A stretch of 64,000 bases of DNA from Anaerocolumna sp. (GTDB lineage: Bacteria > Bacillota > Clostridia > Lachnospirales > Lachnospiraceae): contig JAQSXJ010000015.1 in assembly GCA_029256725.1 (NCBI GenBank), positions 1-64,000 of the forward strand, written 5' to 3'. Every line of letters begins with the position of its first letter. The first letter of the stretch is position 1. The notes beneath the pieces are model-generated. The model searched no databases, was not told where the DNA came from, and was given only the letters and a program-made list of their open reading frames with translations. The position numbers and the translations under genes are program-made. Positions 14,146-54,719 of the stretch are shown piece after piece.

Positions 14146-14358
14146 GGTAATTTACACAAAATAAAAAGCCTCATGCTTCCATAGAAATGTATAAGAAGTC
14201 CTAATTCTCTGTATATTTTCTGCTTGGCATATCATCAAACAGATAACTCGCTACGCTCAGACAATCTGTTTGATGATATAGCATAAAATCTTCAGAGAAA
14301 AGGACATCTAATACATTTCTATAGGCGCATGAAGCTTTCTATTTTGTGTAAATCACCT
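14146..14358. repeat. palindromic repeat family, copy A
   Basis: About 213 bp that is an imperfect palindrome along its whole length. The outer arms read GGTAATTTACACAAAATA and its near complement. The central stem is a perfect 15-bp pair (14230-14244 with 14264-14278) around the conserved loop AACTCGCT...CGCTCAGACA. It shares the middle arms AAGAAGTCCTAATTCTCT and TTCAGAGAAAAGGAC with the other copies. No coding potential. Confidence 0.75.
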
Positions 14359-14426
14359 GAAATCGTATTAAATACAGGGCTTTTTGATACTTAGCTTAAT
14401 ATTCTATTGTTATTTATATATAGAAA

Positions 14427-14477
14427 GAAAGGAAAAGTGGATATAAAGTTTACCACTTTTATATCCTCTTTCCTTTC
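14427..14477. repeat. long palindrome, possible bidirectional terminator
   Basis: Arms of about 23 bases (GAAAGGAAAAGTGGATATAAA and its complement with one-base slips) form a strong hairpin. There is no clear U-run on either side, so terminator activity is uncertain. It stands alone between repeat copy A and the MITE at 14508. Confidence 0.4.
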
Positions 14478-14507
14478 GATAATATAATTTAATTATTTCT
14501 ATATTTA

Positions 14508-14690
14508 CTAGGGTGTGTCTGAAAACTTATTGCACCGTTCTGAATACTCCACTTTGCGTTATTCTGCGCTGCAATTTAAGGAATGTAACACCACTACGTC
14601 CCCCAAATTTCGCCTTGCTGTTTTCGCAAATCGCCCCCCCACAAAGTGGAACATCCAGCACGGCACAAGCAGTTTTCAGACACGCCCTAG
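14508..14690. mobile_element. 183-bp CTAG-bounded MITE
   Basis: The ends are 20-bp inverted repeats, CTAGGGTGTGTCTGAAAACT at 14508-14527 and its complement at 14671-14690 with one mismatch. A second inner inverted pair, TCCACTTTG / CAAAGTGGA, lies inside. There is no protein-coding gene. The last four bases CTAG are also the first four of the next element (14687-14996), which suggests CTAG is the target or part of the end. Confidence 0.65.
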
Positions 14691-14996
14691 AGAGTCAAAA
14701 GTTCCAGTTGATTTAACGTTCTAAAGTAGATTTTATACAATTTCAGGAAAAATGCACAAAACAGAAAGAGCGAATGCGCCTATGGAAAGGGATTAGAAGT
14801 CCTTTTCTCTGAATATTTTGTGCTATCTTCTAAAACAGATTGTTTGAGCGATAGCGAGTTATCTGTTTTAGAAGATGTCCAGCACAAAATATTCAGAGAA
14901 TTAGGACTTCTTATCCCTTGGAATGAAGCATAAGCCTTTCTGTTTTGGGTATTTTTCCGTCCGTATGACAACAAAACAGAACTTTTGACTCTCTAG
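14687..14996. mobile_element. palindromic repeat family, copy B, with 18-bp terminal inverted repeats
   Basis: A 310-bp unit bounded by perfect inverted repeats CTAGAGAGTCAAAAGTTC (14687-14704 and 14979-14996). The core (about 14753-14954) is a copy of the palindrome family with a perfect 15-bp central stem (14826-14840 with 14861-14875) around TGTTTGAGCG...AGCGAGTT. A nearly identical unit in the opposite orientation occupies 50530-50840. This looks like a non-autonomous mobile element built round a hairpin. It lies directly downstream of the ECF operon and could stop its transcription. Confidence 0.7.
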
Positions 14997-47372: not shown

Positions 47373-47539
47373 AGTTGTTCACCTTCCTTATTAATTAATT
47401 CATCATGCTTATTGATTTACGACATCATTCTAACAGTATTTTGTGTAGAGTCTGTGAAGAAATTTATAAATTAAAAAGATTTTTTCAATGTATTCATTTT
47501 AAATTCAAGTGTCAAAAACTTGCTTCCATATGATTTCAG
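47373..47539. other. htrA upstream region
   Basis: AT-rich, with no gene. It should hold the htrA promoter; I see no clear operator. Confidence 0.35.
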
Positions 47540-47752
47540 GCGAATTGCACAAAAGAGAAAGAATGAATGCGCCTATGGAAAGGCATTAGAAGTCCTTTTC
47601 TCTGAATATTTTGTGCTATAATGTAAAAAGATTGTTTGAGCGAAGCGAGTTATCTGTTTTACATTATGACTAGCACAAGATATTCAGAGAATTAGGACTT
47701 CTTATGCCTTGGAATCGAAGCATGAGTTCTTTCTATTTTGTGCAATTCACCG
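47540..47752. repeat. palindromic repeat family, copy C
   Basis: About 213 bp, with outer arms GAATTGCACAAAAGAGAAAG and complement, middle arms GAAGTCCTTTTCTCTGAATA and complement, and a central stem ATAATGTAAAA...TTTTACATTAT (47618-47632 with 47652-47667, one bulged base) round TGTTTGAGCG AAGCGAGTT. It lies between htrA and the divergent sugar transferase gene. Confidence 0.75.
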
Positions 47753-47820
47753 TCCCCTTGTGAAAAACTAATTTTTTAAACTCTACTCAACAAATAACTG
47801 CACCCGTCCGGTACAATGAG

Positions 47821-47837
47821 TTTTCAATCATGCCCTA
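47821..47837. repeat. degenerate MITE end
   Basis: TTTTCAATCATGCCCTA matches the right terminal repeat of the 14508-14690 element (TTTTCAGACACGCCCTA) at 14 of 17 positions. No left end is seen; a decayed copy. A closer match, TTTTCAAACACGTCCTA, occurs at 49429-49445 (15 of 17). Confidence 0.35.
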
Positions 47838-47981
47838 AATGAATCTTAAGAATTTCAGTTAAATATTAAGAAAATTTTGTATTGTGGAAATTCTTTCAAT
47901 CATGTATTATAATAATGTCATTTAAGGACAAAATTAAATTAAAGAAACCAAGAAAAATGCCGTTGGGCAATGGAGTTTTGA

Positions 47982-49463: not shown

Positions 49464-50495
49464 ATGGCTGTTAAAAAGAAAAGAAAGCGCTTTAAGACGA
49501 AAGTTGTTATTATATTTGATTTGATACTTCTACTGCTGGTTGTCAGTGTAGGTTACTATTTCTGGAAGGCTTCCAAAATGCATGTGGACAAGTCCGGAGA
49601 TTCCTCTATCGTTACCAACAATCCAGATAATGAGGATATGGAGGGATACCGTAACATAGCCGTTTTCGGTGTAGACTCCAGAGACAATTCTTTAAAACAA
49701 GGCACACATTCAGATACCATCGTTATCGTAAGCATTAATAATAAGACCAAAGACGTTAAACTGGCTTCTATTTACCGTGATACCTATTCGAAGATTCCCG
49801 ATGAAGATAATGCTTTCAATAAGATTAACGCAGCTTATTTCCGCGGTGGTTATCCCCTGGCACTTAATACCATTAATACCAATTTTGATTTAGATGTTAA
49901 GGAATATGTAACGGTTAACTTTAAAGCAGTTACCGAGGTAATCGACCTTCTGGGGGGCATATCACTTGATATTACAAAAGAAGAATTAAAATATGTTAAT
50001 GGATACACCAAGGAGTTAAATAAAATTAACGGTACAGATGTCGGTAAGCTTAAATCAGCCGGTACACAGGTTGTAAATGGTACGCATGCTACAGCTTATG
50101 CAAGAATCCGCTATACCAAAGGGGATGACTTTAAGAGAGCTGAAAGACAGCGAATTGTTATCCAGAAGATTTTTGAAAAAGCCAAAACCGCTGATATTAT
50201 GACCATTAATTCTATACTGGACAAAATTTTACCGATGATTCAAACTAATCTGGACCCTGCTAAACTGCTATTGCTTGCCAAAGATATCATGTCCTACGAT
50301 ATCGTAGGCGAAACAGGTTTTCCTTTTGATAAAAGAGCTTTTACTTATCATAAAGTATCCTATGTATTTCCGGTGGATCTTGTTGCGAATGTAACACAGC
50401 TTCATCAGTTCCTCTTTGAGACAACAGATTACGCTCCTTCTGAAAAGGTTAAAGAGTTAAGCGCTGAGTTGAAGGAAATTACTGATAACAATTAA
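49464..50495 (+). CDS. LytR-CpsA-Psr (LCP) family wall polymer ligase
   Basis: A 343-residue membrane-anchored protein with a basic N terminus, one TM segment (about 14-32) and an extracellular LCP domain. Conserved features are VFGVDSRD, HSDTIVIVSINN, SIYRDTYSKIP, INAAYFRGG and a C-terminal RIRYTKGDDFKRAERQR. LCP enzymes transfer teichoic acids or polysaccharides from lipid carriers to peptidoglycan. It follows the sugar transferase by 63 bp, so the two probably make and attach the same polymer. Confidence 0.92.
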   Translation: MAVKKKRKRFKTKVVIIFDLILLLLVVSVGYYFWKASKMHVDKSGDSSIVTNNPDNEDMEGYRNIAVFGVDSRDNSLKQGTHSDTIVIVSINNKTKDVKLASIYRDTYSKIPDEDNAFNKINAAYFRGGYPLALNTINTNFDLDVKEYVTVNFKAVTEVIDLLGGISLDITKEELKYVNGYTKELNKINGTDVGKLKSAGTQVVNGTHATAYARIRYTKGDDFKRAERQRIVIQKIFEKAKTADIMTINSILDKILPMIQTNLDPAKLLLLAKDIMSYDIVGETGFPFDKRAFTYHKVSYVFPVDLVANVTQLHQFLFETTDYAPSEKVKELSAELKEITDNN

Positions 50496-50529: not shown

Positions 50530-50840
50530 CTAGAGAGTAAAAAGCTGTGTTTTGATATTATACGGACGGAAAAATACCCAATACAGAAAGACTCGTGCTT
50601 CATTCCAAGGGATAAGAAGTCCTAATTCTCTGAATATTTTGTGCTGGACATATTCTAAAACAGATAACTCGCTGACGCTCAAACAATCTGTTTTAGAATA
50701 TAGCAAAAAATATTCAGAGAAAGGACTTCTAATCCCTTTCCATAGGCGCATTCGCTCTTTCTGTTTTGGGTATTTTTCCTGACATCGTATAAAAAACTGA
50801 CTTTAGCACGTAAAATCGACTAGAACTTTTGACTCTCTAG
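50530..50840. mobile_element. palindromic repeat family, copy D, with CTAG-bounded inverted repeats
   Basis: A 311-bp unit beginning CTAGAGAGTAAAAAG and ending CTTTTGACTCTCTAG, nearly identical to 14687-14996 but inverted. It shares that copy's outer GGACGGAAAAATACCCAA block. The central stem is a perfect 16-bp pair (50650-50665 with 50686-50701) round AACTCGCTGACGCTCAAACA. The left terminal repeat has small differences from copy B. Confidence 0.7.
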
Positions 50841-50913: not shown

Positions 50914-51046
50914 TACAAAATAGAAAAGACTCATATGCCTGTTGAAAGATATCAGATATCCTTTTCTCTGAGCATTTTATGCGATAATAGTAAACAGGTT
51001 GTTTGTGATCTGCTTCATTGAGGGAGTTATCTGTTTTACATTACTT
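50914..51046. repeat. palindromic repeat family, copy E (truncated)
   Basis: A half copy: ACAAAATAGAAAAG, the CCTTTTCTCTGAGCATTTTATGC arm (in two parts) and a degenerate central stem with GTAAACAG / CTGTTTTAC. The second half is missing. The right side runs into the 3' end of the TagF-like gene and contributes its stop codon. Confidence 0.6.
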
Positions 51047-52220
51047 CCAGAATCTTATCCGCTACTGCTTTTGAGGCCAATCCGTCTTCATAGAGCACTA
51101 ACCCCTTAAAGAATTCTTTAACCCTATCTTCATAATAAGTACTGTTAAATTCTAAAATACAGTTCTCCAGCTGCTCCATATTTTCTGCCTGATCATAAGG
51201 AAGTGTAGAATAGTCAAAATAAAATCCTCTGCCATCGTCATATTCCCTCTTATCTGAAGCATATAAAAATACCGGCTTACCGGTTAAGGAAAATTCAAAC
51301 ATGATATTTGAGTAATCTGTTATAAGAATATCACTTTCAGACATTAACTCATAGATATCGCGATAATAGGATGCATTAATAACTCCCCTGCCATACTTAA
51401 GAGCACTGCTTTGAGCCGCTACAAGAGGATGAAGTCTGACCGCTACAATCCAATTGCCACCAAATTTCTCCGTAAGACCTGATATCAACCTGTCATATTC
51501 AAGTGAATATGCTGCCACATTATTTTTTCCTTCTCTGTAAGTTGGCGCATAAAGAGCTATCTTTGTATCTTTCCCTATGCCAAGCTCTTTTCTTAAACGT
51601 TCCCCGATACCCTTTTTTGGTTTAATAAGTATATCGTTTCTGGGACTTCCGCATTCTAAGATGGGGCCTTTATACCAGAAGCTTCTGCGGTACATCTTCG
51701 TACAGAAATCACTGTTGGAAATATAAAGGTCTGTCATAGCAGAGTCTCTTTTCGCATTCTTTATATAAGCTTTTCCCAGATGAGCAGCATAGTCTTTTTC
51801 AATTTTCTTTAATGCAATTCCACCGTGCCAGGTCTGGATGTAATATTGCTTTTTTCTTTTTTTAATATAGCTTTCCTTACGGTTATTATCAAGCCATATT
51901 CTGGCGGTTGCAAGGCTGTATATAGCTTTCATACTATTGCTCTTATATACAGTGACACCCTTTGGTGCACCGGCAGCCTCCGGATGGTTGGTGATAAATA
52001 TCAGATCCAGGTCTTTTCTTTGCCTTGCTGCCAGCTCTTCTGTCACATATTTCGTATTGTCACCGAAGCCCCAGACATTGCAGATTACAACTTTATTTTT
52101 CTGTATGGGTAATAAACGAAACAGTCCGAAAAGGGCTGTTATAGACAGATATCTGAATTTCTTATATACATTTATTCCCCATTCCGGCGATAACTTTTTT
52201 AACTGCTCCCGCAAAGCCAT
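51036..52220 (-). CDS. CDP-glycerol glycerophosphotransferase family protein (TagF-like)
   Basis: A 394-residue peripheral membrane enzyme predicted to add glycerol phosphate from CDP-glycerol to a growing wall polymer. The family motifs are QTWHGGIALKK (about 128-138; catalytic His), GSPRNDIL, LYAPTYRE, RLHPL and DILITDYSNIMFEF with the CDP-glycerol-binding acidic residue. It has a single glycerophosphotransferase domain. The stop codon falls in a truncated palindromic repeat. Part of the block with tagD. Confidence 0.87.
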   Translation of the reverse strand: MALREQLKKLSPEWGINVYKKFRYLSITALFGLFRLLPIQKNKVVICNVWGFGDNTKYVTEELAARQRKDLDLIFITNHPEAAGAPKGVTVYKSNSMKAIYSLATARIWLDNNRKESYIKKRKKQYYIQTWHGGIALKKIEKDYAAHLGKAYIKNAKRDSAMTDLYISNSDFCTKMYRRSFWYKGPILECGSPRNDILIKPKKGIGERLRKELGIGKDTKIALYAPTYREGKNNVAAYSLEYDRLISGLTEKFGGNWIVAVRLHPLVAAQSSALKYGRGVINASYYRDIYELMSESDILITDYSNIMFEFSLTGKPVFLYASDKREYDDGRGFYFDYSTLPYDQAENMEQLENCILEFNSTYYEDRVKEFFKGLVLYEDGLASKAVADKILEVM

Positions 52221-53498: not shown

Positions 53499-54719
53499 CT
53501 ACCTTTCTCCCCTAATTATTTTCTCTATTACCTCCACAACTTTAACGGATGCTTTTCCGTCATCAGCATGGTTGTATTTATTATAGAAATTGTTGTACTT
53601 GTCTTCATACATGCTGCTGTTATAATTTTTGATTGCCGTCTTGAGCTCCTCTGTAGTTCCAACAATCGGTCCAGGTGCCTCTTCCAGAAAGTCAAAATAA
53701 AAGCCCCTTAAATTATTCTTATACTCTTCCAAATCATAAGTATAGAAAAACATAGGCCTTTTTAACAGAGAATAATCAAACATTACAGAGGAATAGTCTG
53801 TTATCAGAATGTCTGCTACCAGGTACAGGGTTGATATATCTTCGCACATATTGAATTCATATACAAAACCGCCGTATGTAGACCAGTCGATATTATCCTT
53901 CACCAGGTAATGATATTTCACTACACATACATACTCGTCACCGAATTCTTTTTTCATCATGGCAAAATCCATAGGTGTATTAAACTTATAGGCACCTTTG
54001 GTATAATATTCATTATCCCGCCAGGTTGGCGCATATAGGATAATCTTTTTATTCTCGGGAAGTCCCATCTGCTTTTTTAACTTACTGATATACTCATTAT
54101 TATTACCGTAAAAAAGGACATCATTTCTCGGATATCCTATTTCCAGCATGTTTTTATCGAATGCAAAAGCTCTTCTGAAGATTTCGGTAGAATAATGATT
54201 CTGGGATAATAGAAAATCCCAGGTTCTTGTATTAATAAAAAAGCTTCTCTTGTATTTATCTATATCCGTTTCACCGGCCATGTTAACGGAATCCATGTCA
54301 AGGGCCAGTTTCTTAAGGGGTGTACCATGCCAGGTCTGGATGTAGTGTACACTTTTTCTCTTTTTAAGATAATTAGGCATTCTGGAGTCGGTCACCCATA
54401 TCCCTGCAATACCCATTATTAGAAAATAACGTGTTCTTGTCCGCTTTACCTTTATGGCACTGCCTGGTATTTCTGTAGCAATGTTATCCAAAAAGAAATA
54501 ACAGCGGTACTTTTTATCCAGTCCCTGTTTCACCATCTCTTCATAGATGGCCTTCGGATTCCCGGTATAGTTTCGTCCCATGTTGCTTTCAAATATTATA
54601 ATGTTCTTATTTATAGGAAGAATAGAACATTCAATTCTGTACAAAAGCATAACGGCTTTCTTTCCAAACCGTTTGATCATTTTCTTGCATTTATTCTTAA
54701 GCTGCTTAAGTTGGGGCAT
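53499..54719 (-). CDS. CDP-glycerol glycerophosphotransferase (TagB/TagF-like)
   Basis: A 406-residue enzyme of the same family as the gene at 51036. Motifs: QTWHGTPLKKLALDMD (catalytic His), GYPRNDVLF, LYAPTWRDNE, VKYHYLV and DILITDYSSVMFDYS. The basic N terminus (QLKKLKNKCKKMIKRFGKK-like) suits membrane association. It may be the primase (TagB role) while the other copy polymerises, but this cannot be decided from sequence. It starts 18 bp after tagD. Confidence 0.88.
   Translation of the reverse strand: MPQLKQLKNKCKKMIKRFGKKAVMLLYRIECSILPINKNIIIFESNMGRNYTGNPKAIYEEMVKQGLDKKYRCYFFLDNIATEIPGSAIKVKRTRTRYFLIMGIAGIWVTDSRMPNYLKKRKSVHYIQTWHGTPLKKLALDMDSVNMAGETDIDKYKRSFFINTRTWDFLLSQNHYSTEIFRRAFAFDKNMLEIGYPRNDVLFYGNNNEYISKLKKQMGLPENKKIILYAPTWRDNEYYTKGAYKFNTPMDFAMMKKEFGDEYVCVVKYHYLVKDNIDWSTYGGFVYEFNMCEDISTLYLVADILITDYSSVMFDYSLLKRPMFFYTYDLEEYKNNLRGFYFDFLEEAPGPIVGTTEELKTAIKNYNSSMYEDKYNNFYNKYNHADDGKASVKVVEVIEKIIRGER

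Follow-up and report, generated by a model that had tools for sequence, protein, structure and literature searches.

Large intergenic hairpins of a REP-like family and their apical tag, found in several bacterial phyla

The window analysed here is the whole stretch of 64,000 nucleotides, bases 1-64000 of one contig of a 5.53-Mb draft genome. A hairpin-forming repeat family of about 310 bp is represented in it by five copies, four intact and one decayed (Table 1). All five places had been listed in an earlier note as copies sharing a palindromic core, and all are present in the sequence; four are intact, and the fifth (50914-51046) is a decayed remnant, whose syntenic counterpart in another species (locus L296) is intact. 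The core hairpin is imperfect, about 220 nt long, with 68 consensus pairs. Two subtypes, S and L, have this core in common and differ in their outer arms and ends. The copies at 14146 and 47540 and the remnant at 50914 are of the S type, and those at 14687 and 50530 of the L type, which is about 310 bp long and bounded by a terminal inverted repeat. As the earlier note stated, the loop halves, AACTCGCT and CGCTC(A/G)AACA, are common to the copies; the strand carrying AACTCGCT is called the tip strand below. The copy at 14146-14358 has a syntenic ortholog in Clostridium sp. KNHs205, with its tip at G449:C3:1352147-1352165.

Two other repeats were seen in the window. A different, MITE-like element with inverted ends GGGTGTGTCTGAAAA / TTTTCAGACACGCCC occupies 14512-14690 and abuts the L copy at 14687; an end resembling that of this element (GGCGTGTCTG) is also found after copy L034. 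A 48-nt direct repeat, 81% identical, lies at 51822-51869 and 54324-54371, within neighbouring ORFs.

Table 1. Positions of the repeat copies and their tips in the window.
Feature	Position	Strand	Remarks
S-type copy, core hairpin	14146..14358	+	tip-bearing strand AACTCGCT on +
Tip of S copy 14146	14245..14263	+	AACTCGCT-A-CGCTCAGACA
Inner covarying stem around tip 14245..14263	14229-14244 / 14264-14279		
L-type copy, full length	14687..14996	-	terminal inverted repeats CTAGAGAGTCAAAAGTT
Tip of L copy 14687	14841..14860	-	two loop bases: AACTCGCT-AT-CGCTCAAACA
S-type copy	47540..47752	-	between two divergent genes; KNHs205 ortholog L296
Tip of S copy 47540	47633..47651	-	AACTCGCT-T-CGCTCAAACA
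L-type copy	50530..50840	+	34 bp past stop codon of 343-aa ORF 49464-50495, same sense
Tip of L copy 50530	50666..50685	+	AACTCGCT-GA-CGCTCAAACA
Decayed S-type remnant	50914..51046	-	damaged in tip and one arm; extends over the stop end of ORF 51036-52220

The copy number in the genome is far above chance. A BLAST search with one copy gave at least 41 places at E <= 2e-60 (best 40 of 123 candidates scored), with weaker and reverse-strand matches besides. The exact tip pattern AACTCGCT-N(1-2)-CGCTCARACAATC was matched 53 times, the reversed-pattern control not at all. A shorter tip pattern also gave 53 matches, against 14 for its reversed form, a control that is inflated because the pattern nearly equals its own reverse. 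By BLAST the element was found in 6 of 61 genomes searched, all six belonging to one genus and including that of Clostridium sp. KNHs205.

Folding was far more stable than for shuffled sequences: z was -15.9 for the copy at 50530-50840 with DNA parameters and -19.3 for that at 14687-14996 with RNA parameters, with none of 100 shuffles as stable in either case. For covariation, 78 copies were aligned, 38 from this genome (five truncated or rearranged copies being omitted) and 40 of the 75 tip places in KNHs205. The consensus structure was that of RNAalifold, with 68 pairs, from which one constant column pair was dropped before the statistics. Watson-Crick pairs filled 4987 of 5216 cells (95.6%), whereas shuffling one side among the sequences gave 83.1%, with a maximum of 83.8% in 500 shuffles. 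Double-change cells numbered 420 (shuffle mean 75, maximum 98) and extra pair types 83 (28, maximum 35), so that the pairing statistics lie beyond all 500 shuffles. When the partner was slid by one to three columns, pairing dropped to 23-40%. Some stem blocks are nearly invariant; others, such as the innermost stem, show all four pair types with few mismatches. The inner stems thus do differ between copies while each pairs with its own partner, as the earlier note had it, and when the test proposed there, a search of more copies for stem differences that do not pair, was run on the 78 copies, the differences proved to be paired and compensated.

Neither the window nor 11 further loci gave an Rfam family at the gathering threshold, which agrees with the earlier view that no named family matches. 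A lax search of 47400-47900 returned only MIR2670 (41.9 bits, threshold 117) and ES003 (17.5, threshold 37). The weak match to MIR2670, a plant miRNA precursor family, lies at 47544-47746 and probably arises only because both are long AT-rich hairpins.

The change of individual copies in place was followed at 12 loci of this genome that are syntenic, by their flanking proteins, with KNHs205 or a third species (G014), a count made among the fetched part of the relatives' copies. In 22 overlapping ortholog comparisons there were 56 double Watson-Crick changes, 4 other doubles and 66 one-sided changes. Over 20 ortholog pairs, the 17 fixed tip positions were unchanged (0/340), compared with 154/3327 at paired positions, 112/927 in the other unpaired core, 429/1564 (27%) in the outer arms, 363/3020 in the left flank and 1082/2616 in the right flank, where the alignment is loose. 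In 12 of these pairs (204 of the 340 tip positions) BLAST had found both members, without preselection of their tips; in the remainder at least one member was found by its tip, the KNHs205 copies having mostly been collected in that way, and badly broken tips such as that at 50914 are absent from the 20 pairs. Since the stems have changed in matched pairs in place and the tip has not, individual loci have kept pairing, core and tip as the species diverged, whereas the ends decay. Of eight orthologs checked, six had the ortholog as the nearest or tied nearest copy. A paralog was nearer for L021 and L027, so exchange between copies may contribute.

The same-locus compensated differences and unchanged tip positions support the earlier reading of selection on a hairpin; as to where the compensations come from, the mutations point in addition to a second source. 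If compensation passed mainly through G-T or A-C intermediates, double changes should be rich in transitions. Those in the ortholog pairs comprise 21 transitions and 23 transversions (23/44), compared with 58 and 54 at unpaired sites (54/112) and 40 and 18 among one-sided stem changes (18/58). Template switching during replication is documented as a source of compensatory changes in the available text of PMC8794818, and because about half of the double changes are transversions, switching between the arms probably helps to supply them. It leaves unexplained the frozen tip and the asymmetric internal loops, which are conserved among copies, and both selection and switching therefore probably act.

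The conserved loop is conserved as described but is not a plain single strand: it is itself a 2-bp mini-hairpin, with an outer pair that covaries and an inner C-G pair that is nearly fixed. In the aligned copies of this genome, tip positions differ from the consensus in 3 of 646 cases and the other unpaired core in 144 of 2310. Three copies of this genome carry a single tip change, which breaks the inner pair in L008 and L025 and alters the loop base in L022. A loop base is also changed in L053 of genome G004. With the outer pair left variable (AACTC-N-CT-N(1-2)-CG-N-TCARACA, 13 genomes), the matches listed contained 18 compensated outer-pair variants against 2 uncompensated. Sixteen of the compensated variants listed are A-T (14 in G011, one in G010, one in Mucispirillum) and two C-G (Clostridium magnum and G011). 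The totals for KNHs205 and G014 equalled those of the exact pattern, so there are no hidden outer variants in those two. When the inner pair was also allowed to vary, in 14 genomes other than the window's own, no genuine inner-pair variant was found; that scan added one more outer variant without compensation, and in G010 and G004 three matches that look unrelated. Among 241 non-identical contexts, the loop between the tip halves has one base in 196, two in 43 and three in 2, ie one or two bases in 239; a single four-base loop occurred among the Mediterraneibacter matches. Of the 43 two-base loops, 12 fit the RNA GNRA rule and 31 break it. In copy L052 of G010 the tip is enlarged by an extra 8-bp stem closing in the same turn.

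Read on the opposite strand, the tip is X'-C-G-N(1-2)-A-G-X, spelling GCG-N(1-2)-AGC, and in this it resembles the d(GCGNAGC) mini-hairpins. The turns cGNAg and cGNNAg, as in d(GCGNAGC), are extra-stable DNA mini-hairpins, and we take the opposite strand of the tip to have this very stable form. Under the energy model with DNA parameters, the one-base tip of that strand, taken in isolation, has no predicted structure, and the two-base form a weak one of -0.8 kcal/mol. The argument from tip stability thus draws on the general properties of such turns, the model giving little or no fold. We know of no genome-wide dispersed use of a GCGNAGC-type motif.

The mismatches also distinguish the strands. 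On the tip strand of the 78 aligned copies there are 103 A.C mismatches against 48 G.T, in 33 columns against 10, with the same excess in both genomes (p about 1e-5 by cells, which are not independent). An A.C mismatch on the tip strand is a G.T on the other, which is also the strand of greater folding stability in 72 of 78 copies under DNA parameters and in 73 of 78 under RNA parameters. Together these favour the other strand; by itself this does not distinguish DNA from RNA.

Gene context was taken from simple ORF calls for 78 copies with both neighbours in three genomes, orthologs included; seven further copies were incomplete. The neighbours are convergent at 34, tandem in the sense of the tip strand at 27, tandem in the opposite sense at 8 and divergent at 9. 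In the window's genus, therefore, copies lie mostly directly 3' of genes: the upstream gene has the sense of the tip strand in 61 of 78, and in 47 of these 61 the tip is 134-236 bp from the stop codon. The 9 divergent and 8 opposite-sense sites break the rule. Convergent sites (34/78) are commoner than among other adjacent gene pairs (22/171), an enrichment that is weak when gaps of at least 150 bp are compared (11/50, p = 0.014). The L-type copies occupy the same position (13 of 17 co-sense), so that an insertion preference may contribute. A universal gene-sense rule outside the genus was rejected, the context there being mixed. On crude ORF calls, co-sense tips numbered 31 among the 63 resolved, with 96 tips left without a call; with a codon-composition filter the co-sense counts were 24/37 in Burkholderiales, 5/5 in a Clostridium group and 2/8 in a gammaproteobacterial group.

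In a complete relative, 43 of 56 tips are co-oriented with the replication fork, as judged from dnaA and the GC skew of 12 stretches. An explanation by replication was not adopted: the bias places the tip strand, and not the favoured strand, on the lagging template, and it was dropped because gene orientation can also explain the bias.

Mobility is apparent for one subtype only. The L copies alone have terminal inverted repeats with 7-8-bp duplications, the S ends having decayed. Direct repeats of at least 7 bp flank 7 of 13 readable L copies, compared with 4 of 156 swapped flank pairs, and KNHs205 has no L copy at the places syntenic with 14687 and 50530. From these observations the L subtype appears to be an element spread by transposition. 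The terminal-inverted-repeat pattern has 23 matches in the genome. Of seven fetched sites beyond the BLAST list, four have hairpin arms or tips, L041 and L042 are short, and L044 has a single end. None of the sites examined proved to be an autonomous relative sharing these ends, and the tip-less L041 and L042, which have paired L-type ends, contain no ORF of at least 100 aa between them.

A transposase partner was sought among Y1 proteins. The window's genome has no Y1_Tnp match at E <= 0.001; among eight tip-bearing genomes searched, seven do have a match. Sixteen Y1 loci were fetched, and four of them (L309, L310, L314 and L316) have a tip within about 1 kb; at L310, in Mediterraneibacter, the Y1 gene lies between two tips. 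Degenerate Y1 pieces occur about 290-450 bp from three tips (L309, L316 and L333, ie G449:C3:822824, G014:C1:2366201 and G014:C1:4198754); two of them match IS200-like proteins by tblastn, and the piece at L333 gave a weak match only (E = 7e-4). We presume that the Y1 proteins and pieces beside tips are of IS200 type. A REP/RAYT unit built from L310 and the three pieces was considered and rejected in favour of IS200 insertions, which are simpler because the L310 tip pair is about 670 bp wider than the usual 415 bp and the proteins look IS200-type. In the three cases from the genus the Y1 genes or remnants lie on the same side of the tip, as if IS200 prefers hairpin targets. IS elements reportedly target REPs.

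The tip extends well beyond the family in which it was found. With the pattern AACTCGCT-N(0-4)-CGCTCARACAATC and one genome per species, at least 114 tip loci were obtained, where about one chance match is expected by arithmetic. By record names, carriers among the matches listed are Burkholderiales, other Pseudomonadota, Bacteroides, Mediterraneibacter, Clostridium and other Bacillota, together with Mucispirillum, a Desulfuromonadales MAG and a Gastranaerophilales MAG (single match). Some of the MAG matches may be contamination, eg Brevundimonas L097, which has Burkholderiales arms. The same tip thus occurs on unrelated hairpins in at least five phyla, again by record names, and most of the tips listed sit on a hairpin whose sequence is specific to its lineage. 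In G010 and G011, which belong to the window's genus, the tip is borne by other arms. The genomes searched included five tip-bearing and five tip-free species of one genus. The matches listed comprise 112 non-identical tips on about 21 arm families, and for 105 of the 112 the complementarity of a tip's own arms exceeded the 95th percentile of arms swapped between families. This cross-family test replaced a fold-based control with enclosing pairs (95/109 tips against 57/109 random places), which was too lax. The tip is sporadic yet can be abundant: the exact pattern is present in 3 of a sample of 391 genomes of the class, this one included, and one Mediterraneibacter has 151 matches to the short pattern (reversed control 59, inflated by the near-symmetry of the pattern). 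The S element of the window had no match in plasmid or phage collections. A Polaromonas element matched one 2.5-Mb Variovorax plasmid record and no phage, and one contig of a viral collection had the tip pattern.

In Mediterraneibacter G456 (L242-L249) two arm types form inverted pairs in many places, with tips about 415 bp apart, like REP dimers. A second motif precedes the tip hairpin by about 60-100 bp at L061, L112, L115, L094, L127 and L171 (Burkholderiales, Thiodiazotropha and Bacteroides): a small hairpin like CTTTCTTTTG-n-CAAAAGAAAG, then TAACCAAAGAAAAGG, for which a string search of the literature found no match. For the tip motif itself, string and topic searches of the open-licence PMC literature found no recognised description, and it is not mentioned in the available text of two stem-loop and REP surveys (PMC2267715, PMC12306157).

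The description that fits these elements best is REP-like: they are large intergenic hairpins whose apical tag recurs across phyla. According to the available text of PMC3733652, REPs are 20-40 bp long with stems of 5-13 bp and an unpaired basal tag, and fall into GTAG- and CGTC-tagged superfamilies in which a short tag is joined to diverse stems in many phyla. The present family resembles them as repeated intergenic palindromes lying mostly 3' of genes, between tandem or convergent genes, and in its short tag shared by diverse stems across many phyla (PMC3733652). It also resembles them in the inverted pairs of some genomes, here Mediterraneibacter, Bacteroides and Burkholderiales. The position downstream of genes holds in the genus and is mixed elsewhere. 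The differences are that these hairpins are about 220 nt, well outside the REP size, that their common motif is an apical mini-hairpin, and that the window's genome yielded no RAYT or Y1 gene at E <= 0.001 that the repeats could flank. In this genome the left end of most copies reads GGACGG, so that on the opposite strand CGTC adjoins the outer arm; in other respects the hairpin does not resemble a CGTC REP. The family is like MITEs or foldback elements in showing no coding capacity and in the inverted repeats and duplications of the L subtype. It differs from them in that old S copies lose their ends and keep core and tip in place, in that the tip crosses phyla on unrelated arms, and in that no autonomous relative shares its ends among the sites examined. 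Strand asymmetry, imperfect hairpins and the Y1 pieces near three tips recall the IS200/IS605 and TnpA-REP substrates, except that these pieces are read as IS200 insertions and not as an autonomous partner. By length and transposase association the family thus falls outside the REPs, and the L subtype alone passes as a MITE.

Our preferred reading, to which we give a probability of roughly 0.4, is a REP-like element with its tag at the apex and not the base, whose tip is subject to strand-specific recognition as DNA. The functional form would be the strand opposite the sense strand of the adjacent gene, in a fold of single-stranded or extruded DNA that a stable cGN(1-2)Ag turn closes, and a putative conserved cellular or transposase-like protein would recognise the tip on that strand. 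The element might then act at gene ends, where it could, for example, mark or buffer the DNA that separates transcription units; during replication, template switching from one arm to the other would repair the pairing, and selection would keep the conserved blocks and the tip. The gene position fits an RNA function equally well, and RNA parameters likewise favour the other strand. An RNA element, either a hairpin within the upstream gene's 3' untranslated region or an antisense RNA from the other strand, with a tip that binds an RNA-binding protein or protects the mRNA end, is accordingly a possible if rather unlikely alternative. Co-sense upstream genes at 61 of 78 copies, tips 134-236 nt past the stop codon in 47 of the 61, and covariation with conserved internal loops are what a structured RNA would typically give, and the better RNA fold of the other strand (73/78) would suit an antisense transcript. 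A sense RNA should tolerate G.U over A.C, yet A.C is twice as common; the two-base loops have no GNRA bias (31 of 43 break it), there is no Rfam match at threshold in the window and 11 loci, and divergent sites exist.

That the family is a purely selfish foldback or MITE, with arms matched by hairpin-templated copying and a tip needed only for transposition, is less probable. The inverted repeats of the L copies, their direct repeats (7/13 against 4/156), the two L copies missing from KNHs205 and the 23 of 44 double changes that are transversions, as template switching would give, all agree with it. It is weakened by the old syntenic S copies, in which the tip is unchanged (0/340) against 27% change in the outer arms; ends are lost and core and tip kept, so that something other than mobility keeps the core, and the L-type ends of L041 and L042 enclose no ORF of at least 100 aa. 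It is very improbable that pairing is maintained by mutation only, through template switching or exchange between copies, with no structural selection. In their share of transversions the double changes are like unpaired sites and unlike one-sided stem changes, switching is a documented source of compensation (PMC8794818, in the text available), and two of eight orthologs are closer to a paralog; the frozen tip, the conserved asymmetric loops, the slower change of the core than of the flanks and the same tip on unrelated arms would all be left unexplained.

To return to strand-specific recognition of the tip as DNA, the presence of the same tip on unrelated hairpins in distant bacteria suggests a recognition signal that has so far escaped notice. 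We propose, tentatively, that AACTC-X-C-T-N(1-2)-C-G-X'-TCARACA, as a strand-specific DNA mini-hairpin, is a cross-phylum signal read by one putative conserved protein at chromosomal gene ends, and that this is why it was gained or retained by unrelated hairpins of Bacillota, Pseudomonadota, Bacteroidota, Deferribacterota and other groups.

REP-like palindromes are common, yet their function and spread are poorly understood. A nearly frozen tip common to several phyla offers a bait for the partner, and predicts which of its bases should matter. The ortholog series is in addition a natural record of compensatory change in a hairpin, in which the type of mutation helps to separate selection by the wobble route from template switching.
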